Of a stretch of DNA of 32,619 nt, positions 16,006 through 20,153 are shown piece after piece; position 1 is the first letter of the stretch, and the number at the start of each line of letters is the position of its first letter. The position numbers and the translations under genes were made by a program. The stretch comes from Bacteroidaceae bacterium. Lineage in GTDB: Bacteria; Bacteroidota; Bacteroidia; Bacteroidales; Bacteroidaceae. A model generated the notes under the pieces. That model was not told where the DNA came from, did no database searches, and saw only the letters and a program-made list of their open reading frames with translations. Location of the stretch: NCBI GenBank assembly GCA_017381015.1, contig JAFOCV010000087.1, positions 1 through 32,619 of the forward strand, written 5' to 3'.

Positions 16006-18036
16006 ATGAAGAAAAGCCTAAAGAAAATTGGCCGTTGGCTAATGTGTGCATGCTTGTTGCTATCAGCCAGCACCATCTATGCACAGGTTAATGAGAAGCC
16101 CTTCGTTATCCCCGAGCTTCAGACTTGGACAGGTGCCGAAGGTACTGTTACTCCTTCCGGAGTGGTATGTGTAAGCGGAAGCAACAAGGAGTTGATGCGC
16201 GTGGCACAAGCCTTTGCCGCTGACTACGAGACTATGTTTGGCAAAGCTCTCACCGTCAAGAAAGGTAGCCCCAAGGCTGGCGATATCCAGTTGGTGCTAA
16301 AGAAGGGTGACAAGGCTCTCGGTAAGGAAGGTTATCGCCTTACTATCGGCAAGCATATCACCATCACTGCTGCTACTACTCAGGGTGCATTCTGGGCTAC
16401 TCGTACTTTGCTTCAGTTGACCGAACAGAACGCTGCCCTACCCAAGGGTGAGACAGTAGACGTACCTGCATATGAATTGCGTGGTTTCATGGTGGACGTT
16501 GGCCGTAAGTTCATGCCTATTGACTACCTTAACGACTTGGTAAAGGTGATGGCATACTACAAGATGAATGCCCTGCAGGTTCACCTCAACGACAATGGTT
16601 TCCGTCAGTTCTTTGGCAATGATTGGGACAAGACTCCCTCTGGTTTCCGTCTGGAGAGTACCTTGCATCCTGGCCTCACCTCTAAGGATGGACATTACAC
16701 CAAGCAGGAGTTTATCGACCTACAGATTCTTGGCGAGAACAACTACGTAGAGGTTATCCCCGAGATTGACGTACCTGCTCATTGCCTTGCTTTCGTTCAT
16801 TACAAGCCTCAGCTTGGTAGCAAGGAGTATGGTATGGACCACTTGGATATGTTCCACCCCGAAACCTATCCCTTCATCGATAGCGTATTCCGTGAATACC
16901 TAGAGGGCGATAATCCCGTATTCCGTAGTAAGCGCGTAAACATCGGTACCGACGAGTATAGCAACCGTGATAAGAAGGTAGTGGAAAAGTTCCGCGAGTT
17001 TACCGACCACTACATTCGCTTTGTAGAGAGCTTTGGCAAGCAGGCTATGCTATGGGGTGCACTCACCCACGCAAATGGTGAAACTCCTGTCAAGAGCGAA
17101 AACGTAATCATGAACATCTGGCACAATCCATATGCTCAGCCCAAGGATATGAAGGAACAGGGTTACAAACTGGTTTCTATCCCCGACGGACTTGTATATA
17201 TCGTACCTGCAGCTGGTTACTATTATGATTACCTCAACTGCAAATATCTATACAACAGTTGGACTCCAGCCAACATCGGTGGCGTACAATTTGAAGAGAA
17301 TGACCCCGACATCCTAGGTGGTATGTTTGCTATATGGAACGACCATCATGGCAATGGCATCTCTACCTACGATGCACATCATCGCACATATCCCGCTCTA
17401 CAGACAATTGCTGTTAAGTGCTGGACCTCTAGCAAGACATCTCTCCCCTATGAGCAGTGGGATGCTAAGCGCTGGGAATTGAGCGAAGCTCCTGGTGTCA
17501 ACTGGCTTGGTCGCATCGGCGAGAAGAAGAGCCTGGTGGCAGAAATCGCTAGCGTAAAGGCTGGTGATACTCTTCCCTACGAGGAAATCGGTTATGACTA
17601 CACCGTTGAATTCAAGGTTGCTGGTGCTCAGGAGGCTAAGGGCACTAAACTATTCAGCTCTAAGCACACTACATTCTACTTGTCAGACCCCAGAGAGGGC
17701 AAGCTGGGCTTCGAGCGCGATGGCTACCTGAATACCTTCAACTATCGTGTACCCAAGGGCGAAACTGTACAAATTGCCATTCAGGGCAACAACAAGATGA
17801 CTCGCCTATACGTCAATGGTCAATTGAAGGAAGAACTAGGTCCTAAGACTCTCTATGTTGTCAACGACCAGCACAAAGCCAATTACATCTCATGCCCCGA
17901 GATGAAGAACGTAGAGATGTACACCACTGATGGTGCTAAAATATTCTATCAGCGCACATTGGTATTCCCCTTGCGCAAGGCAGGTGATTTCAAGAGTACT
18001 GTAAGCGACCTGAAGATTTGGAACTACCTAAAGTAA
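16006..18036 (+). CDS. Secreted glycoside hydrolase family 20 (beta-N-acetylhexosaminidase type)
   Basis: 676 residues. A signal peptide ends near A26 (TIYAQ). Residues about 30-150 form the GH20b alpha/beta domain; the catalytic barrel spans about 155-470 (RGFMVDVGRKFMP, MNALQVHLNDNGF, VIPEIDVPAH). The catalytic pair is D316-E317 in NIGTDEYS, as needed for substrate-assisted retaining hydrolysis of terminal GlcNAc/GalNAc. The motif has threonine before DE, where many relatives have G or A. A C-terminal concanavalin/LamG-like beta-sandwich (about 500-670) could bind glycans. Similar architecture occurs in hexosaminidases and lacto-N-biosidases, so the exact aglycone is open. It would supply amino sugar to NagA/NagB. 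There is no T9SS tail, so a periplasmic location is likely. Confidence 0.9.
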   Translation: MKKSLKKIGRWLMCACLLLSASTIYAQVNEKPFVIPELQTWTGAEGTVTPSGVVCVSGSNKELMRVAQAFAADYETMFGKALTVKKGSPKAGDIQLVLKKGDKALGKEGYRLTIGKHITITAATTQGAFWATRTLLQLTEQNAALPKGETVDVPAYELRGFMVDVGRKFMPIDYLNDLVKVMAYYKMNALQVHLNDNGFRQFFGNDWDKTPSGFRLESTLHPGLTSKDGHYTKQEFIDLQILGENNYVEVIPEIDVPAHCLAFVHYKPQLGSKEYGMDHLDMFHPETYPFIDSVFREYLEGDNPVFRSKRVNIGTDEYSNRDKKVVEKFREFTDHYIRFVESFGKQAMLWGALTHANGETPVKSENVIMNIWHNPYAQPKDMKEQGYKLVSIPDGLVYIVPAAGYYYDYLNCKYLYNSWTPANIGGVQFEENDPDILGGMFAIWNDHHGNGISTYDAHHRTYPALQTIAVKCWTSSKTSLPYEQWDAKRWELSEAPGVNWLGRIGEKKSLVAEIASVKAGDTLPYEEIGYDYTVEFKVAGAQEAKGTKLFSSKHTTFYLSDPREGKLGFERDGYLNTFNYRVPKGETVQIAIQGNNKMTRLYVNGQLKEELGPKTLYVVNDQHKANYISCPEMKNVEMYTTDGAKIFYQRTLVFPLRKAGDFKSTVSDLKIWNYLK

Positions 18037-18100: not shown

Positions 18101-18139
18101 CTGTCGTGACAGAGAATCGTTACGTGAGATAGGAGGGGA

Positions 18140-18230
18140 GTTGGCTAGCGCAATGAGAACATAAACGTATATGTCCACGCTCTGAAAATTAATACTATAC
18201 CATTCCTGCAAACTGTCCCACTGAGACAGG
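18140..18230 (+). repeat. 91-bp perfect direct repeat, left copy
   Basis: Identical over 91 bp to 19122-19212. It begins GTTGGCTAGCGCAATGAGAA and ends CCCACTGAGACAGG. Its last third matches the 3' coding end of the DUF559 gene: 18197-18240 against 18923-18966 is 44 bp with one difference, and in frame it reads IPFLQTVPLRQGDEE then stop. It is therefore a composite of the element's 5' flank and 3' end. Confidence 0.9.
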
Positions 18231-18386
18231 GGGACGAGGAGTGAAACGACGGAGGGGGTGGATAATAAAGGTCAGTAAGAAGAACGAAGTGACTTAAGTG
18301 TGGACAGGAACAGCTAGGAAGGAAAACAGAACATACAAATAGTTTATCCACCCCCTCCCCACTACGTGGGACTCCCCCTGTCTCAG
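18221..18386. repeat. Inverted-repeat (hairpin) element, copy 1
   Basis: The left arm 18221-18265 and right arm 18344-18386 are inverted. CTGAGACAGGGGGA and GGAGGGGGTGGATAA of the left arm are complementary to the right arm, separated by an unpaired internal section of about 13-15 nt. The right arm holds its own mini-hairpin CCCAC-TAC-GTGGG. A 78-nt purine-rich loop lies between the arms. No T-tract follows, so it is not a standard terminator. Confidence 0.85.
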
Positions 18387-18393
18387 GTGGAGA

Positions 18394-18430
18394 GTTGGCT
18401 AGCGCAATGAGAACATAAGCATATATGTCC
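18394..18430 (+). repeat. Partial copy of the 91-bp repeat upstream of the DUF559 gene
   Basis: It matches the first 37 bases of the 91-bp repeat (GTTGGCTAGCGCAATGAGAA through ATATGTCC) with two differences (AAGCATAT for AAACGTAT), then diverges into the 5' flank of the nuclease gene. This defines the common 5' end of the units. Confidence 0.85.
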
Positions 18431-18514
18431 TCGTTATGGTAATGAAACTACACTGCTCCAGCAAAATACTAAACGCAAGACACAATAACCCAACCTTCAT
18501 AACGTTATACGGTT

Positions 18515-18991
18515 ATGGAAGACTCTCAGCACAACAAGAATGAGTATAGCCACAATCTAAAAGAACAGAAGACCATACGTCGAACTCTACGAACACATGG
18601 TACTCCTGCCGAAGCCATGTTGTGGAAAATGCTCAAGGGAAGACAGATGGATGGTGCAAAGTTTCGCAGACAGTTCAGCATAGGACCATACATCCTTGAT
18701 TTCTATTGTCCCGAATGTCGCATCTGTATTGAATTGGACGGAGATGGTCACTATAGTGCGGACGGTTATGAACATGACCAGAAACGCAATTCATACCTAT
18801 ATGAAAAACATGGCATCACCACTCTTAGGTATGAAAATATGGATGTTTTCAAATCCCCGGAAAATATATGCAAGCAGATTTGTGAAGTAATTAGGGCAAA
18901 GAGAGACAAAACGTACACCGCAATACCATTCCAGCAAACTGTCCCACTGAGACAGGGGGACGAGGAACGAAGTGACGGAGGGGGTGGATAA
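18515..18991 (+). CDS. DUF559 endonuclease-like protein
   Basis: 158 residues. The DUF559 core covers about 18-128: LRTHGTPAEAMLWKML, KFRRQFSIGPYILDFYCPEC, ICIELDGDGHY, LRYENMDVF. E33, D62 and E73/D75 form the conserved acidic set of this Vsr/PD-(D/E)XK-like nuclease fold, so DNA cleavage is plausible but unproven for the family. Residues 137-158 (IPFQQTVPLRQGDEERSDGGGG) are encoded by the left arm of the repeat element and look like an appended, non-domain tail. The stop codon TAA lies in that arm. A 6-bp inverted repeat (CATAAC..GTTATG) covers the start codon. Codon use is less biased than in the neighbouring nag genes. I recognise no partner methylase or helicase nearby. Confidence 0.88.
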   Translation: MEDSQHNKNEYSHNLKEQKTIRRTLRTHGTPAEAMLWKMLKGRQMDGAKFRRQFSIGPYILDFYCPECRICIELDGDGHYSADGYEHDQKRNSYLYEKHGITTLRYENMDVFKSPENICKQICEVIRAKRDKTYTAIPFQQTVPLRQGDEERSDGGGG

Positions 18992-19114
18992 TAAAGGTCA
19001 GAAATAGGAGTAAAGTGTCGTAGGGTGTGAATAAGAACAGCCATGAAAGGGAAACGGCACATACAAAATGTTTATCCACCCCCTCCCCACTACATGGGAC
19101 TCCCCCTGTCTCAG
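18947..19114. repeat. Inverted-repeat (hairpin) element, copy 2, overlapping the DUF559 3' end
   Basis: The left arm 18947-18991 codes the last 15 codons, stop included, of the DUF559 gene. The right arm 19072-19114 is its inverted partner. The right arm differs from that of copy 1 at a single base (ACTACATGGG for ACTACGTGGG). The left arm differs at four bases, all in the unpaired internal section. The 80-nt loop is clearly homologous to that of copy 1 but much more diverged. Confidence 0.85.
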
Positions 19115-19121
19115 GTGGAGA

Positions 19122-19212
19122 GTTGGCTAGCGCAATGAGAACATAAACGTATATGTCCACGCTCTGAAAATTAATACTATACCATTCCTGCAAACTGTCC
19201 CACTGAGACAGG
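19122..19212 (+). repeat. 91-bp perfect direct repeat, right copy
   Basis: Identical to 18140-18230. Here it is followed not by the hairpin element but directly by TGGAGAGTATGATGGCGCAG, which resembles the sequence that normally follows the right arm of the hairpin. This copy therefore looks like a unit from which the hairpin is missing. Confidence 0.9.
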
Positions 19213-19285
19213 TGGAGAGTATGATGGCGCAGTATGTAAAATAAAACGTTTTACATGTGCGATGAAATACGGATATAACACTAAA

Positions 19286-19361: not shown

Positions 19362-20153
19362 TTACAAGTTGTCCTTCTCGATATCCTTGAAGTACAAGTA
19401 TGTACCATGCTTCAACTCAGCTGTAGCAGCCTCATCACAAACGATGATTGCGTGGGGGTGCAACTGAAGAGCAGAAATAGTCCACTCCTGGCTAACACCA
19501 GCTTCGATAGCGTGCTTCAATGCACGAGCCTTGTTGTGACCATTACATACAATCAAAACCTCCTTAGCATCCATTACGGTACCGATACCTACTGTCAAAG
19601 CAGTCTTGGGAACCTTGTTTACATCGTTGTCGAAGAAACGGCTGTTAGCAATGATTGTGTCAGTAGTCAAACTCTTGATACGAGTACGGCTGGTCAATGA
19701 AGAGAAGGGCTCGTTGAAAGCCAAGTGACCGTCGGGACCGATACCGCCCATGAACAAGTCAATACCACCAGCAGCCTCAATAGCAGCCTCGTAAGCAGCA
19801 CACTCTGCCTCCAAATCCTCTGCATTACCGTTCAAGATGTGAACGTTCTCCTTCTTGATGTTGATGTGGCTGAAGAAGTTGTTCCACATAAAGCTGTGAT
19901 AGCTCTCGGGATGCTCCTCGGGCAAACCAACATACTCATCCATGTTGAAGGTTACTACGTTCTCAAAGCTAACCTTACCTGCCTTGTACATCTCAATAAG
20001 GTTCTTGTACAAACCAAGTGGAGAACCACCAGTGGGACAGCCCAACTTGAAAGGCTTCTCAGGTGTGGGATTTGCAGCATTGATGCGTGCAGCTACATAC
20101 TCAGCAGCCCAACGGCTCAACTCAGTGTAGTTAGGTTCAATAATAACTCGCAT
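19362..20153 (-). CDS. nagB: Glucosamine-6-phosphate deaminase
   Basis: 263 residues; converts glucosamine-6-phosphate to fructose-6-phosphate and ammonia. It is collinear with Escherichia coli NagB and keeps the active-site set D72 ([10 protein letters not shown]), D141, H143 ([11 protein letters not shown]) and E148, along with LGCPTGGSP for phosphate binding and SRTRIK. It lies 46 bp downstream of the PD40 lipoprotein gene on the same strand with no hairpin between them, so it may be the last gene of that transcript. It converges on the GH20/DUF559 side. Codon bias is strong, as for nagA and glmM. Confidence 0.96.

Follow-up and report, generated by a model that had tools for sequence, protein, structure and literature searches.

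DUF559 nuclease genes bracketed by inverted tag-plus-hairpin repeats: a probable partner of REP-like elements

The DUF559 nuclease is probably the dedicated partner of a large class of REP-like elements, which consist of a C/G-rich tag followed by a hairpin and usually occur as an inverted pair. The locus described here is probably best read as a partnership of the REP/RAYT kind, with a Vsr/EDxHD-type nuclease in place of the HUH transposase. G/C-rich hairpin and triplex repeats are present in many bacterial genomes, and their published survey identified no gene able to mobilise them. With a nuclease flanked by its own repeats, the origin of such repeats can be tested directly in laboratory bacteria such as E. 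coli. The partnership, if true, would assign a function to a large domain that so far has none, and selfish populations of the REP type would have at least two origins, with unrelated enzymes. No link between DUF559 and repeats was found in the passages available from open-access PubMed Central.

Layout of the repeat array

The window (the whole stretch of 32,619 nucleotides that was analysed) contains an array of repeat units in the interval between the gene of a GH20 family glycosidase (16006–18036, plus strand; PF00728, 2e-33) and nagB, which encodes glucosamine-6-phosphate deaminase and is convergent with the GH20 gene (19362–20153, minus strand; TIGR00502, 3.3e-125). The central unit carries a DUF559 nuclease gene of 158 aa (18515–18991, plus strand; domain at 18563–18892). 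Its left arm (18344–18405, plus strand), supported by the inverted repeats I2, I3 and I9 and a single-strand fold, comprises the tag TTATCCACCCCCTCC (18344–18358), a small hairpin (18358–18370) and the main hairpin (18371–18395). The right arm (18932–18991, minus strand; I1, I2, I11 and a fold), with a hairpin at 18941–18961 and a tag at 18977–18991, is inverted relative to the left one; both arms are about 60 bp long, and each comprises a C/G-rich tag and a hairpin. The last 24 or so codons of the DUF559 reading frame represent a read-through towards and into the right arm. The single-strand folds of four stretches of the window surpass those of shuffles only modestly (z from −0.8 to −2.2; −1.25 for the left arm).

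Unit 1 (18131–18265, plus strand) is a gene-free REPIN-like half-unit with a truncated left arm, a loop and a complete right arm (18208–18265), the last of which recurs at 18932–18991. Unit 3 (19072–19219, plus strand; features D1, D2, I5 and I6) has a complete left arm (19072–19130), a loop and a truncated right arm (19190–19219). Both consist of the same arms and a common loop without the gene, the outer end of each being truncated, and they are 97% identical over 104 nt (18131–18234 and 19113–19216). The spacer between unit 1 and the nuclease unit (18266–18343) is partly similar to that between the nuclease unit and unit 3 (18992–19071); the alignments involving the spacers pair 18319–18418 with 19047–19146, and 18197–18296, the 3′ part of unit 1, with 18923–19022 (87% match).

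The alignments and the match of the protein to PF04480 (8.6e-27) place the repeats, junctions and gene where the original prediction had put them, including three units that share a 5′ box (starting at 18131, 18385 and 19113), with the nuclease body in the middle one only. The outer units had been described as the 5′ flank fused to the 3′ end of the gene; the junction is real, but this “3′ end” is the right repeat arm.

The DUF559 protein

Apart from DUF559, the Pfam search of the window protein revealed neither a Y1 match nor a further DNA-binding domain. The best relative with a solved structure is 3hrl (E 2e-32), and the next one is the mobile-intron protein 3r3p (E 3.3e-4, a profile match), which we take to be the EDxHD nuclease I-Bth0305I; PDB matches at E 0.09 and above were regarded as chance. 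The catalytic domain appears to be related by profile, through 3r3p, to those of EDxHD homing endonucleases and Vsr, but DUF559 is here a single short domain located between genes.

The residues D, ExDG, H and D do not vary among 53 diverse rows, which partly reflects selection, as the search patterns included ExDGxxH; the D..ExDGxxH pattern is, however, present in all 139 loci of the genus, where no motif filter was applied. The nuclease is under strong purifying selection, with a median dN/dS of 0.10 over 29 pairs of genus DUF559 genes (highest value 0.44) and an internal stop in five of 139 domains. The window protein has few counterparts on plasmids (matches in 43 of 72,556 records) or in phages (2 of 50,697), and the PADLOC search for defence systems gave weak matches only (E 1.3e-5 or worse).

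Repeats and DUF559 genes elsewhere in the source genome

The arrangement in the window is not a product of chance: the arm core is repeated genome-wide (26 occurrences at no more than two mismatches, five of them inside the window), and gene-free left-arm/loop/right-arm units of about 125–136 bp are found on contigs C129 and C130. Rfam gave no match. The source genome possesses three DUF559 genes, and those on contigs C83 and C47, like the one in the window, lie between inverted palindromes, which belong to a different sequence family in each case. The suggestion that no transposase is present is right for the locus itself; a single Y1 transposase is encoded elsewhere in the genome, on contig C55, yet some repeat-rich genomes have none.

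Several further details were observed. The frame of the DUF559 gene on C47 (L012, G000:C47) stays open across the right arm and enters a leuC-like gene, which results in an open frame of 620 aa, and in genome G079 a DUF559 gene (L262) is seemingly located at the same leuA–leuC place; the names leuA and leuC for these neighbours are presumptive assignments from sequence. The gene-free pairs L003, L004 and L005 (G000:C130) lie near a second repeat, of the CAGGTAGTCAGTTATTTTTTGTCAAGGTA type in L003 and L004 and represented by a related stretch in L005. In L002 (G000:C15:181-340), two arms are joined tag to tag, which is not the usual order in a pair and is the order seen between the units of the window.

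Inverted repeats around DUF559 genes of the genus

DUF559 was detected in 84 of 121 genomes of the genus, with up to eight matches per genome; many of the 37 congeners without a detected copy are incomplete drafts, so some of these absences may be false. The 133 loci examined (three of the source genome and 130 others) were the best-scoring among the matches listed and not a random draw. The DUF559 genes of the genus are flanked by inverted repeats: the inverted-arm score was at least 15 in 122 of the 131 loci with both flanks, as against a maximum of 15.0 for shuffled flanks and 13.0 for 63 shifted positions. The arms share a common architecture, a tag such as GACTCTCCCC, GCCTCACCCC or GACCCACCCC and then a hairpin, and differ in sequence between genes. 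The types of tag seen at DUF559 loci are GACTC, GCCTC, GACCC, GCCCC and CCACCCCC.

When whole upstream and downstream flanks were compared, with no pre-selection of arms, the median score was 29.0 for the gene's own flanks and 10.5 for flanks of other genes (95th percentile 21.5). A gene's own pair ranked in the best 5% for 102 of 131 loci and was the best of all for 45. With mismatched gene pairs as the control, only 10 of the first 33 loci lay beyond the 99th percentile, because genes of the same repeat type cross-match, the arms of different genes being alike. Similarity of the arms was 0.83 for own arms and 0.37 for those of other genes, a comparison biased by the fact that the arms had been picked by that same alignment.

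These comparisons bear on another explanation of the locus, namely that small genes insert by chance into ordinary terminator-like palindromes and that only an insertion preference is seen. The unit of the window does lie between convergent genes, where terminators are expected. Such passenger genes seem hardly probable at all, however, as shifted positions in the same loci are rarely bracketed in this way, a gene's own flanks match each other, and the number of repeats is linked to the nuclease.

Repeat type and nuclease clade are co-inherited, as shown by sequence similarity and tree topology. The similarity of upstream arms tracks that of the proteins (Mantel r 0.23, reached in 0 of 1000 permutations, 122 loci), and the mapping of seven tag types on the DUF559 tree requires 18 changes, compared with a mean of 54 for shuffled types (0 of 200 shuffles as low); this tree of 139 domains, with 84 typable rows, is based on few columns and is therefore coarse.

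The conservation of the protein would also suit a housekeeping function, in which a host repair or restriction-type nuclease processes hairpins or mismatches like Vsr, repeat-rich genomes keep DUF559, and repeats accumulate beside it. Vsr is a mismatch endonuclease that acts with a cognate methylase and nicks T:G mismatches. Besides the strong purifying selection and the few plasmid and phage matches, it is consistent with this function that Vsr is detected by the YcjD profile (PMC1189080) and that a Caulobacter methylase mutant requires VsrA, a DUF559 protein, for SOS induction (PMC12907096). A housekeeping gene, however, would not have to lie between inverted arms whose type follows its own clade, and the number of DUF559 matches, from several per genome to none detected in many (partly incomplete) genomes, also argues against such a function. 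It is considered quite improbable.

In L190 (G094:C42:25569-27280), both arms of a DUF559 unit contain an identical palindromic insert, about 85 bp long, and the arms look as if a second repeat had been inserted in one of them and then copied to the other.

Repeat copy number and the matching nuclease

Repeat copy number is linked to the presence of the matching nuclease. The window-type core is abundant in five of the 121 genomes (98, 58, 45, 26 and 16 matches) and occurs at most once in each of the other 116. Four of the five abundant genomes carry a DUF559 of the window subfamily bracketed by the window-type repeat; identity to the domain of the window protein is 82% in G061, 84% in G064 and 68% in G079, and the upstream arm in G061 has the hairpin and lacks the tag. 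The fifth, G095, is repeat-rich (16 matches) without a matching DUF559.

Hairpin copies are not equally common in genomes lacking DUF559, an outcome in line with the original prediction: of the 84 genomes with DUF559, 21 contain at least 11 copies of the T4 repeat, as against none of the 37 without it (Fisher p 4e-4). The T4 pattern, taken at no more than three mismatches, also includes GACCC-type relatives, and the copy-number tests, here and in the gammaproteobacteria below, ignore kinship among genomes. Lower numbers (1–10 copies) occur in nine of the 37 DUF559-negative genomes. A T4 tag was located beside a fetched DUF559 gene in 13 genomes (on both sides in nine, on one side in four), and 12 of these contain at least 11 T4 copies, compared with 9 of the 71 other genomes with DUF559. 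Those nine T4-rich genomes have no T4 tag beside the subset of their DUF559 genes that was fetched; in at least one of them, G076, T4 copies lie on both sides of a further, unfetched DUF559.

A RAYT was also considered as the main driver and is poorly supported, apart from two weak links with Y1. One of them is the somewhat higher frequency of a strong Y1 match in T4-rich genomes (7/21 vs 15/100, p 0.06); the other concerns triplex repeats and is given below. Seven of the 21 T4-rich genomes have no Y1 match at all, and none was found in G061, G064, G079 and G095.

DUF559 loci beyond the genus and intrastrand-triplex repeats

The association of DUF559 with repeats is far from confined to the Prevotella/Bacteroidales clade. 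From 561 confirmed loci, 80 named ones were kept, 79 of them with usable flanks; 56 of the 79 scored above the 99th percentile obtained with 672 shifted controls and 23 did not. Judged from their record titles, the named loci include members of Bacteroidetes, Proteobacteria, Acidobacteria, Verrucomicrobia, Planctomycetes, Nitrospira, Chloroflexi, Cyanobacteria, candidate phyla and one archaeon of the Methanophagales (L081). Among gammaproteobacterial DUF559 loci, only 15 of 30 were above the control.

Two kinds of published repeats were compared with these loci. The CGTC-tagged REPs (2013) are also palindromic repeats said to be without a dedicated transposase (PMC3733652). They were rejected as partners of DUF559: a scan of 219 DUF559 loci revealed no CGTC-type core closer than 700 bp. 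The second kind is the TMECO intrastrand-triplex motif of Holder et al. 2015, a type known from more than 260 genomes; its authors state that they never came across transposase or integrase remnants around TMECO sites (PMC4666352). Its consensus is CCCTCNCCCN3-6GGGNGAGGGN3GGGNGAGGG, the spacer being widened to 2–4 in the scan of loci. The arms in the window differ from TMECO by eye; in gammaproteobacteria, the arms of DUF559 genes can be exactly this motif. The strict motif was found within 300 bp of 10 of 30 gammaproteobacterial loci, on both sides in six, and at one of 54 shifted positions. For the named loci the figures are 3 of 80 and 1 of 278 shifted positions. The motif is present at all in 17 of 50 named DUF559 genomes, which makes it one repeat type among many.

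The motif follows the nuclease in a sample of 276 genomes of a single class, identified as Gammaproteobacteria by the record title of the centre genome. At least five copies are contained in 27 of 60 genomes with a strong DUF559 match (E up to 1e-15) and in 13 of 216 without it (OR 12.8, p 9e-12); for any DUF559 match, the numbers are 29 of 87 and 11 of 189 (OR 8.1). Y1 transposases, present in 190 of the 276 genomes, are poor predictors of such abundance (OR 1.7, p 0.27), and the presence of at least one copy is weakly linked with Y1 (OR 2.4, p 0.014). The effect of DUF559 on the occurrence of at least five copies persists both in genomes with Y1 (20/48 vs 11/142) and in those without it (7/12 vs 2/74). 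Of the 40 motif-rich gammaproteobacteria, 13 have no strong DUF559, and their repeats can be read as remnants or as the result of missed genes or another driver. No DUF559 was detected in the gammaproteobacterial genomes G211, G213, G412, G241, G250, G316 and G438, which contain 13–60 copies of the motif. Another partner gene may exist for motif-rich, DUF559-free gammaproteobacteria.

Signs of movement, occupied and gene-free sites

The boundaries of the units were examined in 52 pairs of related units (at least 72% identity) from 24 loci, located in different contexts. In 29 of the 52 pairs on the left and in 26 on the right, the point at which homology stops is no more than 10 bp from the outer edge of the tag. 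In the remaining 23 and 26 pairs, respectively, it does not end at the tag and mostly ends inside the unit.

The arrangement is not fixed and syntenic in relatives, a situation that would have spoken against mobility. Of the nagB loci, which occur in 118 genomes, 30 were retrieved and 16 of these examined; in three of the 16 relatives, G061, G079 and G095, the GH20 gene adjoins nagB. The unit is present in this interval in G061 and G079. In G095, the interval contains no DUF559 gene and keeps a scar of about 25 bp (nagB 99% and GH20 89% identical). A true, clean empty site between GH20 and nagB was not found among the 16 relatives.

A target-site duplication was not found at 109 loci, where a match of at least 5 bp occurs in four (control mean 1.6) and one of at least 7 bp in none. 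The absence of such duplications and the presence of only a DUF559 gene between the arms in the window differ from what is known of the MITE of a transposon. The idea that the outer units are MITE-like deletion derivatives is accordingly the weaker of the two that had been put forward, the gene-free units being REPIN-like pairs. The other idea, a REP/RAYT-like partnership, is well supported by bracketing, the copy-number link and co-inheritance.

The ends of homology at outer arm edges have another conceivable origin in intronless homing. A free-standing gene of an EDxHD-type homing nuclease would enter the loop of repeat pairs that owe their spread to another agent: the nuclease would cut a gene-free pair, and repair via the matching arms would copy the gene in, so that the arms would be the homing site and not a product. 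Arm-mediated copying of this kind would also end homology at the outer arm edges, gene-free pairs do exist in the same genome, the protein has a profile match to the mobile-intron protein 3r3p, and a DUF559 gene reported among inteins is described as EDxHD (PMC9403480). Homing alone, however, leaves the abundance of repeats in genomes with the matching DUF559 unexplained, unless the repeats have another linked driver; it does not explain why the triplex motif tracks DUF559 either, Y1 transposases being a poor alternative driver, and a nuclease clade mostly retains its tag type. The copy-number link favours a nuclease that spreads the repeats over one that mainly homes into pairs spread otherwise, and homing is judged unlikely.

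Proposed mechanism and comparison with known systems

Under the REP/RAYT-like partnership, the gene-bearing pair would act as the autonomous element, and the gene-free pairs dispersed in the genome would be its non-autonomous population, like REPs with RAYT transposases. The nuclease is predicted to recognise the hairpin or the tag of its own repeat, probably in a single-stranded or extruded state, and to nick or cut there. Repair or replication would then copy the pair to a new place with no target-site duplication. After the loss of the nuclease, the repeat population would persist and decay. Both the cutting of repeats by DUF559 and the resulting movement are inferred from sequence comparison.

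The proposed system resembles the REPtrons and REPINs of REP/RAYT (TnpA_REP) in several respects. In both cases, the gene is bracketed by inverted tag-plus-hairpin repeats, which are also scattered as gene-free pairs; the partners are repeat-specific, and the scattered repeats are linked to the partner, with exceptions such as G095. The distribution over replicons also resembles that of housekeeping genes more than that of transposases, as described for TnpA_REP in the available part of PMC8266576. The differences are that the enzyme here is a DUF559 PD-(D/E)XK/EDxHD-type nuclease and not an HUH Y1 transposase, and that the tags, judged by the types seen, are C/G-rich and not GTAG.

A broader proposal can be formulated, for which the chances appear to be about even. 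DUF559 would constitute a second REP-mobilising system, unrelated to HUH and occurring in many bacterial phyla and some archaea, in which a nuclease of the restriction fold alone, with no transposase, drives the copying of hairpin or triplex repeats; the widespread intrastrand-triplex repeats, those of E. coli among them, would have in it the partner that they have lacked.

The ycjD region and repeat pairs of E. coli

In strain MG1655, TMECO no. 9 is located about 170 bp downstream of ycjD, the DUF559 gene of E. coli. In E. coli K-12, arms are present on the 3′ side of ycjD only, with a degenerate arm at the 3′ end and none at the 5′ end. The gene is present in 3364 of 5426 genomes. It was considered as a clean empty-site case and rejected: the three ycjD-less strains viewed show efflux genes beside fabI, which indicates a replacement and not an empty site. 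The efflux genes correspond to the eef operon, as described in the accessible part of PMC12817139. Of the fabI–sapF regions inspected (L234, L235, L236, L238, L336), those of one strain (L235, L336) allowed the efflux genes to be followed all the way to sapF. The repeats next to ycjD may have been involved in this replacement.

Another repeat pair, between hrpB and mrcB, was aligned in four E. coli strains. It forms a block of about 100 bp in K-12 and one O157:H7 strain, has an internal deletion in another strain and is absent from the fourth. In a different O157:H7 strain, other than the carrier of the hrpB–mrcB pair, ycjD is missing at fabI.
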